Under the pieces are notes generated by a model. That model made no database searches, was not told the origin of the DNA, and saw only the letters and a list, made by a program, of their open reading frames with translations. Shown one piece after another: positions 2,308-38,720 of a DNA stretch of 38,720 bases; position 1 is the first letter of the stretch, and each line of letters opens with the position of its first letter. The position numbers and the translations under genes were made by a program. This stretch comes from a virus, in the IMG/VR virus record IMGVR_UViG_3300036791_000572, positions 1 through 38,720 of that record, one strand, 5' to 3'.

Positions 2308-3489
2308 ATGTCGAGCTACATCCCCGTGCCCGTCGACACCGAGCCCGTCGACCTCGCCGGCGAAGCGTTCGACTACCTGCAGGCGCAGGTGCCCGGGTGG
2401 CTGCCGGCCGACGGGAACCTAGAGACCTGGCTCGTCGAGGCGCTCGCGCAGATCGCCGGCGAGCTGCGGGCGCTCGTCGCGCTGGTGCCCGACGCGATCT
2501 TCGCCTACTACGGCGCGTCGATCCTCGGGCTGCCGCCCTACCCGGCGCAGCAGGCAATCGCGCAGACGACCTGGACGAGCCGCGACGGGGCCGGCTACAC
2601 GATCGACGCCGGCACCGTGATCGCGGTCACGCCGCCGGCGTCGGCGACCGGGTCGGCGTTCGCCGTGCAGCTCGACGTCGTGATCCCCGCCGGCTCGACC
2701 GTCGCCGCCGGCGTCGTCTGCACCGCGCTCGAAGCCGGCGCCGCCGCGAGCGGCCTCACCGGCACCGTCGACGTGATCGACCAGCTCTCGTTCATCTCGG
2801 GCGTGACGCTCGACGCGCCGACGTCGGGCGGCCAGGACGCCGAGACCGTCGACGCCTACCTCGCCCGCCTCTCGGCGCTGCTAACGCTGCTCTCGCCGCG
2901 GCCGATCCTGCCGCAAGACTTCGCCGTGCTCGCGCAGCGGTCGATCCCCGACGTCGCCCGCGCCGTCGCGATCGACCTCTACAACCCCGGGCCGCCCGTC
3001 GACACGAACTGCCCGCGCTGCGTGACCGTCGTCTGCGTCGACGCGGACGGGCAGCCGCTCGCCGCGCCGATCAAGCAGCAGGTCGACGACCTGCTGCAAG
3101 CGCAGCGCGAGGTCAACTTCCTGACCTTCGTCGAAGACCCGACGTACACGACGATCGACGTCAGCTTCGCCGTGATGAGCTACCCGGGCTACGACCCGAA
3201 CGACGTCGCCTCCCGCGTGATCGCGCAGCTGACGAGCTACCTGTCGCCCGCCGGCTGGGGCGTGCCGCCCTACGGCGACACCTCGGCGCGGTCGTGGATC
3301 AATGACACCGACGTTCGCTACCTCGAAATCGCCGAGCAGATCAACCGCGTCGACGGCGTGCACTACATCAACACGCTCGCGCTCTGCGTGTCGGGCGGCA
3401 CGCTCGGCCAGGCCGACCTCACGCTCTCCGGGATCGCGCCGATGCCGGAGCCGGGCTCGATCACCGGGACGGCGACCGCCGAGACATGA
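2308..3489 (+). CDS. Baseplate J family protein
   Basis: The 393-residue product has the baseplate J (gp47/Mu gp47-like) layout: an N-terminal helical part with ETWLVEALAQIAGELR, a beta-rich middle (AGTVIAVTPP, VIPAGSTVAAGVV) and a C-terminal half with GQDAETVDAYLARL, a hallmark of the family, then FAVLAQRSIPDVARAVAID. It is the main structural part of the wedge of a contractile-tail baseplate. It sits between gp25-like and tail protein I genes, the conserved order in P2-like and Mu-like tails. The stop overlaps the next ATG by 4 bases. An ordinary full-length gene with no sign of damage. Confidence 0.9.
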   Translation: MSSYIPVPVDTEPVDLAGEAFDYLQAQVPGWLPADGNLETWLVEALAQIAGELRALVALVPDAIFAYYGASILGLPPYPAQQAIAQTTWTSRDGAGYTIDAGTVIAVTPPASATGSAFAVQLDVVIPAGSTVAAGVVCTALEAGAAASGLTGTVDVIDQLSFISGVTLDAPTSGGQDAETVDAYLARLSALLTLLSPRPILPQDFAVLAQRSIPDVARAVAIDLYNPGPPVDTNCPRCVTVVCVDADGQPLAAPIKQQVDDLLQAQREVNFLTFVEDPTYTTIDVSFAVMSYPGYDPNDVASRVIAQLTSYLSPAGWGVPPYGDTSARSWINDTDVRYLEIAEQINRVDGVHYINTLALCVSGGTLGQADLTLSGIAPMPEPGSITGTATAET

Positions 3490-4221: not shown

Positions 4222-5313
4222 ATGCCCACGACCGCCGCACACGCGCTCCGCTACCCGGCCGCGACCGACCCGGCCGACGTCCCGAGCGACATGCAGAAGC
4301 TCGCGAGCGACGTCGACGTCGCGCTCATCCCCTGCGACACGGTCGTCGCGGCAGCAACGCGCGTATTGCGGAGCTTCCTCGTTCAAGGTGACGCGAACGC
4401 CGCCTGGGTCGTCACCGGCAACGGCAAGCAGTCGTGGGGCGCAGGCGGCGCGAACGCGCTCGACACGACGCTCTTCCGGGCGGGCCCGAACTACCTGGCG
4501 ACGGGCGGCGGCTTCTACGCCAATCAGGGCGCCGCGAACCAGTTCCTCCTCGGCACCGACGGGCACCTGTATTTCGGCAGCGCGAACGACACCCACCTGT
4601 ACCGCCCCGCGGCCGCGACGTTGCAGACCGACCAGAAGTTCTTCGCGGGTCAGGAGATGCGGGCGGCGGCGCAGGCCACGCAGCTCCTCATCTTCGGCGA
4701 CGTGTCGCCGTACTGCGGCGGCTCGGCCCGGCCGGGGATCGTGTTCGGGTCGGCGGGTGACTCATGGCTCGCTCGCGCAAGCGCCAACGTCCTCAACGCC
4801 GGCGGCTGCGACCTCAACGTGGAGAGGAACTTCATGTGCAAGGGCGGGTGGGCGGCGCAGGTCAGGATGGGTGACCCGTGGGCGAACAACACCGCCGCGA
4901 TCGTGTTCAACGTCAACGCCGACGCCGGGTTACTGCAGTCCGGAGGCAGCGGTTCCAAGATCGCCAACTACACGTACTCGCAGGGTTACGGGCCGTTCGA
5001 CGCGCTCGCGTACAACGTCGCATCCGACCGCTCGCTCAAAGTCGACGAGCAGCGCGTCGAACCCGACTGGCACGACCAACTGCTCTCGGCGGGGATCTAC
5101 ACGTACCGCTACCGGCGCGGCTCGGACACCGAGGGACGGCATCTGGGGATGATGGCCGACGAGCTGCCGGACGTCGTCCGTAGCGTGGGCGAGGTCAAGG
5201 GCGCCGACGAGACGCAGATGGTCGATCTCTACAAGCTCTCGACGGCGCTGCTCGGCACCGTGCAGCATCTCGCCGGACGGCTCGCCGCGCTCGAGGCCCA
5301 ACTCGCGAACTGA
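4222..5313 (+). CDS. Tail fibre/spike with C-terminal S74 intramolecular chaperone
   Basis: A 363-residue protein. Residues 1-40 are a baseplate-attachment-like segment (LRYPAATDPADVPSDMQKLASDVD). A Gly/Asn-rich beta region with repeated features such as FYANQGAANQFLLGTDGHLYFG follows. The last ~105 residues form an S74 peptidase/chaperone domain: the SDRSLK motif holds the Ser268-Lys273 dyad, followed by YTYRYR, RHLGMMADEL and a C-terminal coiled coil (LSTALLGTVQHLAGRLAALE). In this family the domain trimerises the fibre and cleaves itself off. A ribosome site (GGAGG) precedes ATG. GC content and third-position GC are slightly lower than in the baseplate genes, common for receptor-binding genes. 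Host target unknown. Confidence 0.85.
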   Translation: MPTTAAHALRYPAATDPADVPSDMQKLASDVDVALIPCDTVVAAATRVLRSFLVQGDANAAWVVTGNGKQSWGAGGANALDTTLFRAGPNYLATGGGFYANQGAANQFLLGTDGHLYFGSANDTHLYRPAAATLQTDQKFFAGQEMRAAAQATQLLIFGDVSPYCGGSARPGIVFGSAGDSWLARASANVLNAGGCDLNVERNFMCKGGWAAQVRMGDPWANNTAAIVFNVNADAGLLQSGGSGSKIANYTYSQGYGPFDALAYNVASDRSLKVDEQRVEPDWHDQLLSAGIYTYRYRRGSDTEGRHLGMMADELPDVVRSVGEVKGADETQMVDLYKLSTALLGTVQHLAGRLAALEAQLAN

Positions 5314-6985: not shown

Positions 6986-7699
6986 TCAGACGCTGTGACG
7001 CTGCTTCTGCTCGTCTTCGTGGCCGTGCTCGCGGCGCTCGCCTACGCGATGATGCGCCGCTAGATGATGCGTCCGGTGCGCCATCGACGGTAGGCGGATC
7101 GGCGCATCGAAGATGTCGGCGGCCCAGAGCGCCGCGAGCGTGACCAGCACGACGACGACGAGCCCGAGCCAGGCGTCGAGCCATTCGCGGCGGAAGAGGC
7201 GCAGGCCGCCGGTGCCGCCGGTGCGGAGCTTCCGGTCGTGCACGGCCCGCTCGATCGTCGCGGTCGAGCAGCGCGCGTAGTCGGCGGCCTCCGCCTTCGT
7301 CAACCAGGCGGCGTCCGGGTCGTGGTGCGGCTGGATGGCCCGCGCCGCGCCGTCGGCCCGCAGGCGCAGCAGCTCGCCGGGCGGCGCCGCGTGCACGACG
7401 TACAGCTCGCCGCCGTTCACGACCCGGGCGGAGTACGCCGTGTCGACGTGCCGCCCGTCCCGGGTCAGCCATTGCGACGTCCCGCTCACCGCGCCGGTCG
7501 TCGCGAGCTGCTCGACGATCGCCGGCCGCTCGGGCTCCGGTCGCGTCGTGGTCTCCCAGGCCGACACGCCGATCAGGTCGCGAGGCCGCCACCCGAGCAT
7601 CAGCGCGACGTCGTCGCTCACCGCGACGTACCGCTGAGCGTGGTCGCAGACGACGACCCAGCGGCCCAGCAGCCGGGACGGCATCGCGCTGGTGGTCAC
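6986..7699 (-). CDS. PAS-sensor / helix-turn-helix protein with C-terminal membrane segment
   Basis: On the minus strand, against all its neighbours. With GTG 7699 as start there are 237 residues; ATG 7684 (Met6) is an alternative, since GGGGGGAGG lies directly against the GTG. Residues 12-105 read as a PAS domain: VVVCDHAQRYVAVSDDVALMLG, then W-R-P-R-D-L-I-G, then WLTRDGRHVDTAYS and GGELYVVHAAP. Residues 131-177 are an Xis/MerR-type winged helix-turn-helix (AWLTKAEAADYARCSTATIE, then LRLFRREWLDAWL). Residues 177-196 are hydrophobic enough to cross a membrane, followed by a His/Arg/Glu-rich tail of 40 residues. Its position beside the integrase block suggests a lysogeny regulator that senses a ligand, redox state or light; this is inference. 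No other repressor gene is obvious in the window. Confidence 0.75.
   Translation of the reverse strand: MTTSAMPSRLLGRWVVVCDHAQRYVAVSDDVALMLGWRPRDLIGVSAWETTTRPEPERPAIVEQLATTGAVSGTSQWLTRDGRHVDTAYSARVVNGGELYVVHAAPPGELLRLRADGAARAIQPHHDPDAAWLTKAEAADYARCSTATIERAVHDRKLRTGGTGGLRLFRREWLDAWLGLVVVVLVTLAALWAADIFDAPIRLPSMAHRTHHLAAHHRVGERREHGHEDEQKQRHSV
6995..7063 (+). CDS. Possible 22-residue membrane peptide
   Basis: A very short frame from GTG encodes one hydrophobic segment (TLLLLVFVAVLAALAYAMM) and ends RR. It follows the holin-like gene and could be a second lysis peptide. It lies entirely antisense to the 3' end of the PAS regulator, and there is no clear ribosome site, so it may be only a by-product of that gene. 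Confidence 0.25.
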   Translation: MTLLLLVFVAVLAALAYAMMRR

Positions 7700-7931
7700 C
7701 TCCCCCCGGAGTCGGTCAGGAAGCGCCAGAACCTACCATCCGGCCGCGCCCGTTCACGCCCCGGTCAACACGAATGCCGCAAAGAGCGGGAACTTCTCGC
7801 GGGCCCGTCACCGCGCCGCACCGTCCCGCACGACCCGACACCGCTACCGCAGGGCCCCGCAATTCGCCTCACCGCCCGTCAGGGCCCGTCATGCGCGACG
7901 ACACCGGCCGCGCTAGCGTGCGCCCTTCCTC
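7700..7931. other. Divergent intergenic region
   Basis: A 232-base gap between the minus-strand PAS regulator and the plus-strand HNH gene. It must hold the start signals of both. On the plus strand TAGCGT (7914-7919) fits TANNNT and is 12 bases before ATG 7932, compatible with a nearly leaderless transcript, but no good -35 is seen. No gene is supported inside. Confidence 0.5.
7730..7768 (-). promoter_or_regulatory. Possible promoter of the PAS regulator
   Basis: Read on the minus strand, TAGGTT (7735-7730) fits the TANNNT -10 pattern and lies about 30-45 bases before the gene. A TTGACC hexamer at 7768-7763 is 27 bases upstream of it, too far for a standard pair; a weaker GTGAAC lies at 16 bases. 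Promoter call is tentative. Confidence 0.3.
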
Positions 7932-8408
7932 ATGGCGAGCGACTCCACCAGCGCCGGCGGATCCGTGTTCGCATCCGTCGAGGCCTTCTACGACGACGAC
8001 GACCGCCGCCGATCGCCGGAGCGGCTGTGCCTTTGTGGCTGCGGCGGCACAACGCCACCGGCTACACGTACGCGGCTCAGTCTCGGCACCACGAAAGGCG
8101 AGCCGATTCGGTACCTGCAGGGCCACGGTCGACGTGCGACAGCTGGGCCACCGTTCCGCGTCGAGGGCAAGGGGTGCTGGATCTGGCAGCGCTGGGTGGC
8201 GAAGACCGGCTACGGAGAGCTACTCGACGGCGGCATTAAGCAGGGCGCACACGTCGTCTACTTCAAGCGGGCCGGAGGCCTCATTCCGAAGGGTTACGTG
8301 CTCCATCACCGTTGCGGCAACAAGCTCTGCGTCAATCCCGCACACCTAGAGCCGCTTAGCCGTCGCGATCACGTCAGACGGCACGTCGGCCTGGAGGCGA
8401 CGCTGTGA
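7932..8408 (+). CDS. HNH homing-type endonuclease
   Basis: The 158-residue protein carries a C-terminal HNH_3-type nuclease: GKGCWIWQRW, GYVLHHRCGNKLCVNPAHLEP and SRRDHVRRH, with paired Cys and the His-His/Asn/His core. A Cys-rich LCLCGCGG motif near residues 33-40 may be an extra zinc knuckle. Third-position GC is visibly lower than in its neighbours and the start ATG has no overlap with another gene, both typical of a free-standing homing gene acquired later. It lies between the regulator and the xis/int genes. Such enzymes promote their own spread; a role for the phage itself is unproved. Confidence 0.8.
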   Translation: MASDSTSAGGSVFASVEAFYDDDDRRRSPERLCLCGCGGTTPPATRTRLSLGTTKGEPIRYLQGHGRRATAGPPFRVEGKGCWIWQRWVAKTGYGELLDGGIKQGAHVVYFKRAGGLIPKGYVLHHRCGNKLCVNPAHLEPLSRRDHVRRHVGLEATL

Positions 8409-8647
8409 GCGACCCGGCGCCCTTGAGCCGGGTCGGCCTGCTCGCCGACGACCTCGACGCCGTCGACGCCCGGATCGCCGGCATCCGTCGCGACGTCGCC
8501 GACTGCCGCTACCGCGCCGGCGAGCTGCGCGGCCGCGGCACCCAGCTCGTCGCGCTCGACCTCGGCCGCGTGCTGATCGCGCTCGGCGCCGCCGACCTCG
8601 CGCTCGACCGGGCCCGCCGGCACACCCGGCTCGAAGAGGCGTCGTGA
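8405..8647 (+). CDS. Small helical unknown protein before xis
   Basis: An 80-residue, mostly helical product (VGLLADDLDAVDARIAGIRR, then DLGRVLIALGAADLALDRAR) with heptad-like spacing, possibly a coiled coil. GTG overlaps the HNH stop, and its own stop overlaps the GTG of the Xis-like gene, so it belongs to the integration operon. No family recognised. Confidence 0.6.
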   Translation: MSDPAPLSRVGLLADDLDAVDARIAGIRRDVADCRYRAGELRGRGTQLVALDLGRVLIALGAADLALDRARRHTRLEEAS

Positions 8648-8871
8648 CGGGCCCGCCCGAGTTCCTGACCGTCGCCGAGGTCGCCGCGCTCTGGCGCGTG
8701 TCGCCGCGCACCGTCCGCCGCATGGTCGGCGACGGCACCCTCCCCTTCATCCAGCTCGGGCCGCGCACGACCCGGATCCGCCGCGACGTCGCCGAGGCCG
8801 CGATGCACGGCGACGCGCCGCGAGCTACGATGGCCGCTGTCCATTATCTAGACAGAAGGAGTCACCCGTGA
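8644..8871 (+). CDS. Excisionase-like helix-turn-helix protein (Xis/RDF candidate)
   Basis: A 75-residue protein of the MerR/excisionase HTH_17 type: EFLTVAEVAALWRVSPRTVRR, then VGDGTLPFIQLGPRTTRIRR forming the wing. Proteins of this size beside an integrase usually act as the recombination directionality factor that turns integration into excision. The stop overlaps the integrase GTG. The HTH resembles the one in the PAS regulator 1 kb upstream. Whether it controls direction of recombination or transcription cannot be told from sequence. Confidence 0.75.
   Translation: MTGPPEFLTVAEVAALWRVSPRTVRRMVGDGTLPFIQLGPRTTRIRRDVAEAAMHGDAPRATMAAVHYLDRRSHP
8837..8855 (+). promoter_or_regulatory. Inverted repeat upstream of integrase
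   Basis: CTGTC (8837-8841) and GACAG (8851-8855) flank the AT-rich nonamer CATTATCTA in otherwise very GC-rich DNA, just before the integrase ribosome site AAGGAG. It could bind Xis or Int, or be part of an att site or promoter. The xis coding region continues through it. Confidence 0.35.
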
Positions 8872-10097
8872 CCACCAGCACGGAACCCGTTCTGCTCGAC
8901 GGCGTCGAACGCTACGGCGCCGGCTACCGAGTCAGGATCCGCTTCCCGAAGCACCTCGTACCGTCCGGCCGCCACATCGAGACCGTGCGGACGAATCCCG
9001 CGCTCCGCACACCCGGCGGCGCGAACGCCCGCGCGCTCGCGCTCGTCGAGCTACGCGAGGCCGGCGTGTCGCCGATCGTCGCCGCCGCCCAGGGCCGCAC
9101 CCTCGCCGACGCGACCGGCGACTTCCTACGCCGCAAGAAGGTCTCCGGTCGCAACCGGCAGCTCCGCCGCCGCGGCGTCGAGTTCTGGGAGCGGTCGTGT
9201 CGGCCGTGGCTCGAAGGCGAGCACGCCTCGACGCCGCTGTCGCTGCTGCGCCGCGACCAGGTCGAGACCACGATCCTCGCGCGGGCGCTCCTGGCGCCGA
9301 CGTCGGCCCGGAACGAGCTGCAGGCGCTGAAGGCGACCCTGCGGCACGCCGCCGACCCGGCCGTCGACCCGTCGATCTTCACGATCGAGCCGATCGCGAC
9401 CTGCCCGCGCACCCGCCGCGCGCTCACCCTCGACGAGCTAGACCTGCTCGCCGCGTGCGCCCCGGACTACGCCCGCCGCCTCGTCTGGATCCTCGGCACC
9501 GCCGGCTTCCGTGTCGGCGAGCTGTTCACGCTGACCGACGACCGGCTCGACCTTCACAGTGAGGCGCCGGCGGCGGTCGTGACCGCCGAGCTGGCGAAGG
9601 AGCGGCTGCCGAAGCGCGTAGCGTTCGACACCGACCAGGTGCAGGTCGTGCGCGAGCAGCTGATGGCACGCGCCCCGGGCACCCGGCTCGTCTTCGCGAC
9701 GAAGACCGGCAAGGCGTGGACGTACCGCCAATTCCACAAGCTCGTCTGGAAGAAGACGACGCACCGGGCCGCGCAGATCTGGCGGCACGACCGCGGGCTC
9801 GACGAGCACGCCGCGACACCGTTCGACGACCTGAAGCCGCACGACCTCCGCTCAACCGCAGCGACGCTGATGCGCGAGGCCGGGTTCACGCGGGAGGAGG
9901 CGGCCGACCGGCTCGGGCACGTCGACTCGGGCGAGCTGCTCGACCGCGTCTACGACCAGGGCGACCGCGGCCAGCGTGCCGCCCGCGCGATCGCGGCGAA
10001 GACGCCGGCCGGGCTCCGTGCCGCTCTAGCCGAGCGGGCGGCGCCGTCCACCAGGCCGACGACCGCCGCGCTCGGCGCACCGGAGGCTACCGCGTGA
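8868..10097 (+). CDS. int: Tyrosine integrase
   Basis: A 409-residue tyrosine recombinase. The N-terminal part holds an arm-binding-like segment and a core-binding helical domain (about 85-170). The catalytic domain shows Arg215 in GFRVGEL, the beta-hairpin Lys in AKERLPK, His325 and Arg328 in HDLRSTAA, His351 in LGHVD and the nucleophile Tyr362 in RVYDQGD. It joins phage attP to bacterial attB. GTG start has AAGGAG at ideal spacing. It is complete and should be active. Length is normal for actinophage integrases. The preceding Xis-like gene and the following early operon overlap it by 4 bases each. Confidence 0.92.
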   Translation: MTTSTEPVLLDGVERYGAGYRVRIRFPKHLVPSGRHIETVRTNPALRTPGGANARALALVELREAGVSPIVAAAQGRTLADATGDFLRRKKVSGRNRQLRRRGVEFWERSCRPWLEGEHASTPLSLLRRDQVETTILARALLAPTSARNELQALKATLRHAADPAVDPSIFTIEPIATCPRTRRALTLDELDLLAACAPDYARRLVWILGTAGFRVGELFTLTDDRLDLHSEAPAAVVTAELAKERLPKRVAFDTDQVQVVREQLMARAPGTRLVFATKTGKAWTYRQFHKLVWKKTTHRAAQIWRHDRGLDEHAATPFDDLKPHDLRSTAATLMREAGFTREEAADRLGHVDSGELLDRVYDQGDRGQRAARAIAAKTPAGLRAALAERAAPSTRPTTAALGAPEATA

Positions 10098-19451: not shown

Positions 19452-19658
19452 CGTCTTCGCTCGGGCGAGCCGCTGCCCGTAGGCGTCGAGCGCCGCGGCT
19501 GCCTTCACCAGCAGCTCGGCCTCGCCGGTCGCGAGCAGCGGCTCGCTGGTCTTCGAGTCGAGGGCGCCGTGGTCGCGGCACCCGATCTGGAGGATGCGGA
19601 TCGCGGTGTCGGTGCACCAGCGCGGCGTCGGCCGGCGGAACCGCGGCTCGGCGTTCAC
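19446..19658 (-). CDS. Small unknown protein, last of minus-strand operon
   Basis: Start chosen at GTG 19658, which overlaps the stop of the preceding minus-strand gene. The 70-residue product reads RFRRPTPRWCTDTAIRILQI, then SEPLLATGEAELLVKAAAAL and ends basic. No domain recognised. The longer open frame upstream is an Arg-rich shadow of the neighbouring genes. Confidence 0.55.
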   Translation of the reverse strand: MNAEPRFRRPTPRWCTDTAIRILQIGCRDHGALDSKTSEPLLATGEAELLVKAAAALDAYGQRLARAKTS

Positions 19659-19855
19659 GCCGCCTTCGTCGCGGTGCCGGCGACGATCCGCCGCACCCAT
19701 TCGGGGGAGAGGCCGGTCGCGGTCGCGATCGCGCGCAAGGGCATGCCGGCGTCGCGGGCGGTGCGGATCTCCTGGTCGAGCGCGGCGCGGGCGGCCGCGT
19801 GCTTCGCGGCCGCCCGGCGCAGCGCCTTGTCGGGCGTGGTCGTCGGGGCCGTCAT
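19655..19855 (-). CDS. Small helix-turn-helix protein
   Basis: Start at ATG 19855, which overlaps the preceding stop (ATGA). The 66-residue product has a basic helical N-terminus (KALRRAAAKHAAARAALDQE) and a helix-turn-helix like those of sigma-factor region 4 or Hin-type recombinases: GMPLRAIATATGLSPEWVRR. It is a candidate transcription regulator of this operon or of the early genes. It has no partner domain. Confidence 0.65.
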   Translation of the reverse strand: MTAPTTTPDKALRRAAAKHAAARAALDQEIRTARDAGMPLRAIATATGLSPEWVRRIVAGTATKAA

Positions 19856-20100
19856 CAGACGAGCCCCGCGTGCCGGCGCACCGTCCACAGCACCAGCTCC
19901 ATGATGCGCTCCTCGTCGCGGCCAGCGGTCGCGGACGCCTCGACGATGTAGGCGTTCGCCGCCGGCTCAAGGCGCAGCCGGTCGACGCGGCCGGCGAGGC
20001 GGAAGTCGAGCGCCTCGTCGAGCGGGTAGCCGAGCCGCACCAGGCGCTCGACGTGCTCGAAGACCGGGACGAGTTCCTCGGCGATCGTCGCGGCGGTCAC
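19855..20100 (-). CDS. Small unknown helical protein
   Basis: An 81-residue product from GTG 20100, overlapping the stop of the first gene of the operon. It is helical (IAEELVPVFEHVERLVRLGY, then AANAYIVEASATAGRDEERI), no recognised motif. Part of the four-gene minus-strand unit. Confidence 0.6.
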   Translation of the reverse strand: MTAATIAEELVPVFEHVERLVRLGYPLDEALDFRLAGRVDRLRLEPAANAYIVEASATAGRDEERIMELVLWTVRRHAGLV

Positions 20101-20408
20101 CGGGACACCTCGACGTCATCGAAGAGGCCCTGCTCTTCGGCTTCGAGGTCGAGCCAGTTGTCGTCGCCGACGCGCACTTCGAGCATCCAGGCGGCGTGCA
20201 CCTGGGCCCAGCCGGGCGCGGTAGCGGGCGCCGGCGTCGTGATCCGGTACTGCTGCTCAAGGCCGCCGTCGATCGTGTCGACGAGCGCGTAGCTGCGGTG
20301 CGACCCGTCGGCGCACTCGCCGATCGTGACGCCGGAGACTTCGCCGCCGTCGATCGAGGCGACGTCCGCGGCGAGAGTCGCGAGGCGGGTGAGGTGCGTG
20401 AGATCCAT
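20097..20408 (-). CDS. Unknown protein, first of minus-strand operon
   Basis: ATG 20408 has AGGAGG at ideal distance. The 103-residue protein has a helical N-terminus (LTHLTRLATLAADVASIDGG), then strands with SGVTIGECADGSHRSYALVD and WMLEVRVGDDNWLDLEAEEQ. No family recognised. It is the promoter-proximal gene behind the palindrome at 20464-20478. Confidence 0.65.
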   Translation of the reverse strand: MDLTHLTRLATLAADVASIDGGEVSGVTIGECADGSHRSYALVDTIDGGLEQQYRITTPAPATAPGWAQVHAAWMLEVRVGDDNWLDLEAEEQGLFDDVEVSR

Positions 20409-38433: not shown

Positions 38434-38672
38434 CCGACGACCGCGACCCGACCACCGACGAGCTAGAGCAGCTCGTCGAGCCGCGCGAGGGGATGGCGGT
38501 CGTTCATGGGCCCGACGGCGTCTACCTCGGCTGCATCAGCGTCGAGCGCTGGGCTCGGCTCGTCGAGGACGAGCGGGAGCGGCTGCGGGAGCTGGTGCTT
38601 GAGGAGCGGGCGGTCGAGGCGCTTGAGCGGATCGCGACGGCGCTTGAGCTTGTTCGGCGGGTGCGGGGATGA
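38430..38672 (+). CDS. Small coiled-coil protein after fibre
   Basis: An 80-residue acidic protein with ATG overlapping the fibre stop. A short strand part ([20 protein letters not shown]) precedes a long charged helix ([20 protein letters not shown]) likely to form a coiled coil. It takes the position occupied by baseplate W in the other module. No family recognised; a fibre chaperone is possible. Confidence 0.6.
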
Positions 38673-38720
38673 GCGACGAGCCGACCACCACCGCGACGAT
38701 CGACCCGCCGCGCGCGATCC
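38669..38720 (+). CDS. Start of a gene cut by the window end
   Basis: ATG in the preceding stop opens a frame of 17 codons to the end of the window ([16 protein letters not shown]). Too little is seen for a product. It is not the start of the baseplate W gene of the other module. Confidence 0.45.
   Translation, partial: MSDEPTTTATIDPPRAI

Follow-up and report, generated by a model that had tools for sequence, protein, structure and literature searches.

Phage switches known to read a chemical signal are few, and the known PAS example, of the VqmA type, does not use an excisionase fold; the HTH of VqmA is LuxR-type, and the protein has no membrane anchor. ToxR and CadC, which are membrane-integrated one-component regulators, consist of a cytoplasmic winged HTH and one transmembrane (TM) helix, with a periplasmic, C-terminal sensor. 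VqmA of vibriophage VP882 is a phage-encoded PAS + HTH regulator of the lysis-lysogeny decision with DPO as its ligand (PMC12802170, PMC8284805), and it acts through the antirepressor Qtip on cI, with no tie to xis-int. Winged-HTH recombination directionality factors (RDFs) of the Apl/Cox type can also be promoter repressors: Apl of phage 186 binds direct repeats at 10-11 bp spacing, five at attP and seven at pR-pL, and represses both promoters (PMC7498355). Head-to-tail oligomers on direct repeats, at about 9-10 bp per subunit, are also formed by RdfS, with one molecule per 10 bp (PMC11963761), and by BldC, on 9-bp repeats (PMC5859096). A PAS-HTH phage switch protein (VqmA) and RDFs that double as transcriptional regulators (Apl) are thus already known; our search of the literature turned up no membrane-tethered HTH of the excisionase type, whether joined to PAS or not. 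The locus described here encodes, beside its integration genes and facing a repeat array, a sensor-HTH protein with a predicted membrane anchor, which suggests a new way to tie dormancy to a host signal.

The DNA analysed (the window) covers a whole IMG/VR virus record (38,720 bases, 73% GC), and its genes for tail sheath, baseplate wedge, terminase, portal, capsid, RecT, primase/helicase, endolysin and integrase mark it as a contractile-tailed temperate phage. Among the terminase matches listed, the best in named phages were those of Streptomyces phages, at about 29% identity. A gene begun at 38669, with an ATGA overlap at its start, continues in frame at base 1 (38669-38720 and 1-806), and the record is for this reason probably a complete, circularly permuted genome. 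By eye, the product of this gene is NlpC/P60-like. The genes of the lysogeny locus are the following.

6986-7699, minus strand: PAS-HTH_17-TM regulator gene, 237 aa from GTG 7699, with homologues in L044 and L053
7932-8408, plus strand: HNH endonuclease (HNH_3, 5e-12), first gene of the opposed operon
8405-8647, plus strand: small conserved protein of the operon, with a relative in L043 (5547-5783)
8644-8871, plus strand: Xis-like HTH_17 protein of 75 aa, overlapping the integrase start
8868-10097, plus strand: tyrosine integrase, with relatives at 47-67% identity

Judged from its sequence, the minus-strand ORF is a real gene; its codon-position GC (0.76/0.53/0.93-0.94) matches that of the true genes in this genome. 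Third-position GC is 94% overall and falls, down to 0.68, in the last ~28 codons only, which overlap a plus-strand mini-ORF (6995-7063). This mini-ORF has 22 codons, is of membrane type (MTLLLLVFVAVLAALAYAMMRR), and lies antisense to the regulator tail, directly after the lysis genes. As the start of the regulator, ATG 7684 is likelier than GTG 7699, since the resulting MPSRLLG.. aligns with MPTRKLL.. of the L053 homologue. A prior reading of the DNA, made without database searches (the sequence-only reading), had called this the only minus-strand gene near the integrase and had placed it at the lysogeny locus. Both statements are correct: the second minus-strand cluster lies farther off, at about 19655-20408, and the regulator faces xis and a tyrosine integrase in the window as well as in L044 and L053. 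The parts of the regulator are as follows.

7394-7660, minus strand: PAS domain, residues ~14-102 (Pfam PAS_4 14-91, NCBIfam sensory_box 15-102, PDB profile, Foldseek)
7166-7306, minus strand: excisionase-family winged HTH (HTH_17), residues 132-178 (HTH_17, TIGR01764)
7112-7168, minus strand: predicted single TM helix, residues 178-196 (hydropathy; AlphaFold helix 171-197)
6989-7111, minus strand: charged tail at the C-terminus, residues 197-237; L044 and L053 likewise have a tail behind the TM helix

The identity of the N-terminal part as a PAS domain was confirmed by four lines of evidence, namely PAS_4, sensory_box, the PDB profile and Foldseek. On the single window sequence, PAS_4 scored 22.9 bits (E 1.1e-4), slightly below the Pfam cut-off of 23.1, while in the genome search the window protein (23.9 bits) and the L044 homologue (24.5 bits) were both over it; the L053 homologue scored 27.1 with sensory_box, against a cut-off of 22.9. 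A profile of the three homologues matched HIF-3alpha in the PDB (E 3e-8), and Foldseek, given the AlphaFold model of the regulator, returned PAS/LOV domains as its best matches. It is to be noted that the confidence of this model is low (mean pLDDT 57.5, with most of the HTH and TM blocks at 77-87), and hence only the fold assignment was taken from it. Membership of the PAS superfamily was judged by profile match together with topology (five strands, with helices between strands 2 and 3); in addition to the profile matches, the order predicted by the low-confidence model was E-E-H-H-H-E-E-E. The profile and structure-prediction searches that the sequence-only reading had proposed thus recovered both the PAS and the HTH, and its boundaries (PAS at about 12-105, an Xis/MerR-like HTH at 131-177, a hydrophobic segment at 177-196 and then a charged tail) agree closely with those listed above.

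The nature of the sensed signal is another matter. Across the three homologues, the alignment revealed no invariant His or Cys in the PAS part, and the NCRFLQ-type motif with the flavin-adduct Cys of LOV domains is absent from the regulator PAS. Haem and flavin of the LOV type, which had been offered as options, accordingly look unlikely, and redox sensing was put low on the same ground. With no residue fit for haem or LOV-flavin chemistry kept in all three proteins, the PAS part more likely senses a small organic ligand or serves only in protein-protein contacts.

The HTH scored 31.8 bits with HTH_17 (E 1.7e-7; cut-off 27) and 36.1 bits with the TIGR01764 'excisionase family' model (cut-off 28.8), which places it in the excisionase family of winged HTHs by curated cut-off. 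The BldC-family model NF033787 gave no match to the regulator; the window Xis reached 27.3 with it against a cut-off of 77, and the G008 relative was also a weak match. A similarity of the regulator to PADLOC mad1 was rejected, being due to the shared HTH only. The protein resembles VqmA in being a phage-encoded combination of PAS and HTH, and may play a comparable role in lysogeny; however, the only HTH that follows its PAS is HTH_17, not a LuxR/GerE-type domain, and it is predicted to be anchored in the membrane. Directly after the HTH, mean hydropathy is 2.43 over the 19 residues 178-196 (2.2-3.0 in the homologues), and a post-HTH hydrophobic segment is indeed predicted in all five relatives, so that a winged HTH is joined to a single TM helix much as in ToxR and CadC. 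In contrast to these, the recognised sensor precedes the HTH, the PAS would be cytoplasmic and N-terminal, the outer tail has only ~40 residues, and the HTH is of another family.

Searches for related loci with a single protein or with the integrase alone found nothing, whereas alignments as queries did find them. Full PAS-HTH-TM homologues are encoded in L044 (IMGVR_UViG_3300036791_000363; 34% identity pairwise, 32% in the three-way alignment) and in L053 (IMGVR_UViG_3300036791_000089; 47% identity over the core). In both, the gene opposes xis and a tyrosine integrase, and late phage genes lie on its other side, which in L053 include an amidase endolysin very like that of the window. Two further relatives, found through the terminase, lack PAS but have an HTH and membrane segment(s): in G008 (2570-3097) the gene faces xis-int, and in G011 (41957-42304) it lies next to a serine recombinase. 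On this comparison of sequences, what is conserved at the lysogeny locus is therefore an excisionase-type HTH tethered to the membrane, and PAS is a module added in one branch. The regulator and both homologues had no tblastn match in 50,697 annotated phage genomes, two scans of bacterial genomes found no relatives, and a plasmid search gave only weak PAS matches to Streptomyces ATP-binding proteins (E 0.06 or worse).

The divergent slot of L043 (4469-5108, minus strand) holds a separate HTH gene and then a small separate membrane protein, as if the parts had been split, and an apparently decayed HTH_17-like remnant (VSEATLDRAIHAGELEVGGTRGRR), similar to the HTH of the regulator, lies at about 4930-5020 of L054, close to the four-unit array of that contig. 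In G008, about 1 kb at the contig end (L035, L042) repeats the start at 99% identity, and the genome is for that reason regarded as near complete.

It could be argued that the fusion is accidental or decaying, and its hydrophobic stretch or PAS similarity functionless, given that the single-sequence PAS score is slightly below the Pfam cut-off and that PAS is missing from two relatives. However, the same three-part order occurs in three proteins that are 32-47% identical, with hydrophobicity maintained by different codons, and the coding composition of the regulator is typical of the genome. The sequence-only reading had named the recurrence of the fusion in other prophages as the check, and a chance fusion as the outcome that would overturn it; in fact, three phage contigs share the fusion, each with it in the corresponding divergent position of the lysogeny locus, although two relatives are without PAS. 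The homologues in L044 and L053 refute an accidental origin, which we regard as extremely improbable.

Between the regulator gene and the opposed operon lie the following elements.

7801-7891, plus strand: nine 10-bp direct repeats, consensus about NNGCCCGTCA, all ending in CA, with one 1-nt slip (L053 matrix)
7776-7799, plus strand: second conserved cis element, GCCGCAAAGAGCGGGAACTTCTCG / GCCGCAAAGAGCGGGAACTTC (matrix from six relatives)
7914-7919, plus strand: -10-like TAGCGT (consensus match only), which follows the array at 22 bp and precedes ATG 7932 by 12 bp

The units of the array are, in order, GGGCCCGTCA CCGCGCCGCA CCGTCCCGCA CGACCCGACA (C) CGCTACCGCA GGGCCCCGCA ATTCGCCTCA CCGCCCGTCA GGGCCCGTCA. 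When a matrix made from the L053 units alone was chained nine times and scanned over the whole window, it peaked at 7891 with a score of 27.4, whereas no separate site on that strand scored above -8.5; in 5000 dinucleotide shuffles the window score was never reached, and no shuffle scored above 3.5. Four other contigs likewise have a 10-bp array ahead of the integration operon, with eight units in L053 (tnGCGCGtCA) and in L044 (ncGcGCGCCG), about seven in L043 (..CGCCA), and four in L054 (TCGGCCGTCA, at about 5214-5251). No other 10-bp periodicity in the whole locus is as strong as that of the array in L053, L044 and L043 (z 8-10), that of the window being weaker (z 3.4), and a -10-like TAAAAC (consensus match only) follows the L053 array at the same distance of 22 bp. 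A different strong 10-bp tandem repeat, of the GGCNNGGCNA type, is found away from xis-int at L040 9743-9800.

Considering that Apl, RdfS and BldC bind direct repeats one helical turn apart, head to tail, the array has the form expected of a footprint left by either HTH_17 protein encoded here, be it the PAS protein or Xis. There are differences, however: Apl is small, has neither PAS nor TM and does both jobs as one protein, whereas the window encodes a separate Xis as well; BldC and RdfS lack a sensor or membrane domain, and the window regulator has its HTH in TIGR01764. The hedge in the sequence-only reading that the protein might control excision directly gains weight, since an excisionase-family HTH faces a 10-bp array of the kind bound by RDFs. 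Between the window and L053, HTH identity favours the PAS protein (67%, against 42% for Xis), but the L044 and L053 arrays are also similar; the array consensus does not clearly track either HTH protein, which counts against assigning it to the regulator, as does G008, where no clear 10-bp array was found despite the HTH-TM protein.

The second cis element is the best window match of the six-relative matrix (17.9, against 11.7 for the next), has an inverted-repeat look, and is placed 23-25 bp ahead of the array in the window as well as in L053 and L043; an operator and an attP core are its candidate roles. The array could then be the Xis-binding (and integrase-arm) region of attP, with the 7776 element as a possible core, in which case the PAS protein would modulate recombination by competing with or joining Xis. 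Known RDFs do bind tandem repeats in attP, one helical turn apart (PMC11963761, PMC7498355), the element keeps its spacing of about 24 bp in three phages, and every array phage has Xis, including L043, which has an array and no detectable PAS-HTH-TM protein and so makes Xis a serious alternative binder. On the other hand, a 7776-like element is also present in G011, which has a serine recombinase, and the L044 copy is in the opposite orientation and about 300 bp from the array. No complete attP was identified; a tRNA-type attP was sought in the window and not found, the region having no tRNA-like sequence. (A tRNA T-loop-like stretch in the L043 intergenic region was rejected as attP because it does not pair as a T-arm.) Overall, we consider the attP reading rather unlikely. 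Three points favour the PAS protein for control of the xis-side promoter: its gene adjoins the array, arrays lie near all three PAS genes, and no HTH_3 was found in these phages.

This last point bears on immunity. The sequence-only reading had seen no classical CI-like repressor, and the profile search agreed, with no HTH_3 (CI/Cro-type) protein in the window. None was found in L044 and L053 either, where its absence is weaker evidence, since these records are partial (32 and 23 kb), nor in the near-complete G008. Across 12 related records, PAS_4 was confined to the three PAS phages; HTH_3 was absent from these and occurred in five other records. The regulator could nevertheless be a transcriptional activator or an accessory lysogeny sensor, with immunity due to a different repressor, for example the small HTH protein (19655-19888) in the minus-strand cluster of small genes at about 19655-20408. 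A precedent exists in VP882, where the PAS receptor VqmA activates an antirepressor and cI stays the repressor (PMC12802170), and HTH proteins similar in appearance directly adjoin the xis-int locus in L043 and L044. The HTH hits of the 19655-19888 protein were sub-threshold, however, its gene is 12 kb from the integration locus, and the window has no HTH_3 repressor; we therefore think this arrangement improbable.

The interpretation we favour, to which we give about an even chance, is that the protein is an Xis-like regulator, tethered to the membrane and gated by PAS, which forms oligomers on the array and governs the xis-int promoter. The regulator would be a single-pass inner-membrane protein of the lysogeny/excision locus, anchored by the helix that follows the HTH, its PAS and winged HTH being cytoplasmic. 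Several copies would line up head to tail along 7801-7891, each taking one helical turn of the array, where the last units extend to the expected -35 region of the HNH-xis-int promoter. Binding would most likely repress this promoter, and perhaps that of the regulator itself, so that lysogeny is stabilised; a ligand or state sensed by PAS, probably a small organic ligand and not haem or LOV flavin, would alter oligomerisation, release xis-int expression and lead to excision. Of the original proposal that the protein ties lysogeny to a signal, the PAS, HTH and membrane parts, the locus and the lack of HTH_3 stand, while we infer binding to the array, membrane topology, repression rather than activation, and control by a ligand. 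The low AlphaFold confidence and the small HTH gene at 19655-19888, a possible repressor, speak against the model. If it is true, a membrane-anchored regulator of excisionase fold couples excision control to a ligand or the membrane, and the control DNA of the prophage would be pulled to the membrane; with the array conserved, one protein and short DNA fragments would suffice for a direct test of the idea. A wider version is doubtful, namely a lineage without a CI-type repressor in which a membrane-tethered, PAS-gated relative of the phage's own excisionase keeps lysogeny by holding the xis-int promoter through a nine-turn filament, released upon a change in a host metabolite or the membrane.

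In the HNH gene that opens the opposed operon, the first ~27 codons (SVEAFYDDDDRRRSPE..) match a different short phage protein in the relatives L035 (1839-2246) and L054 (5251-5742). It seems that the HNH domain took the place of the native C-terminal part.
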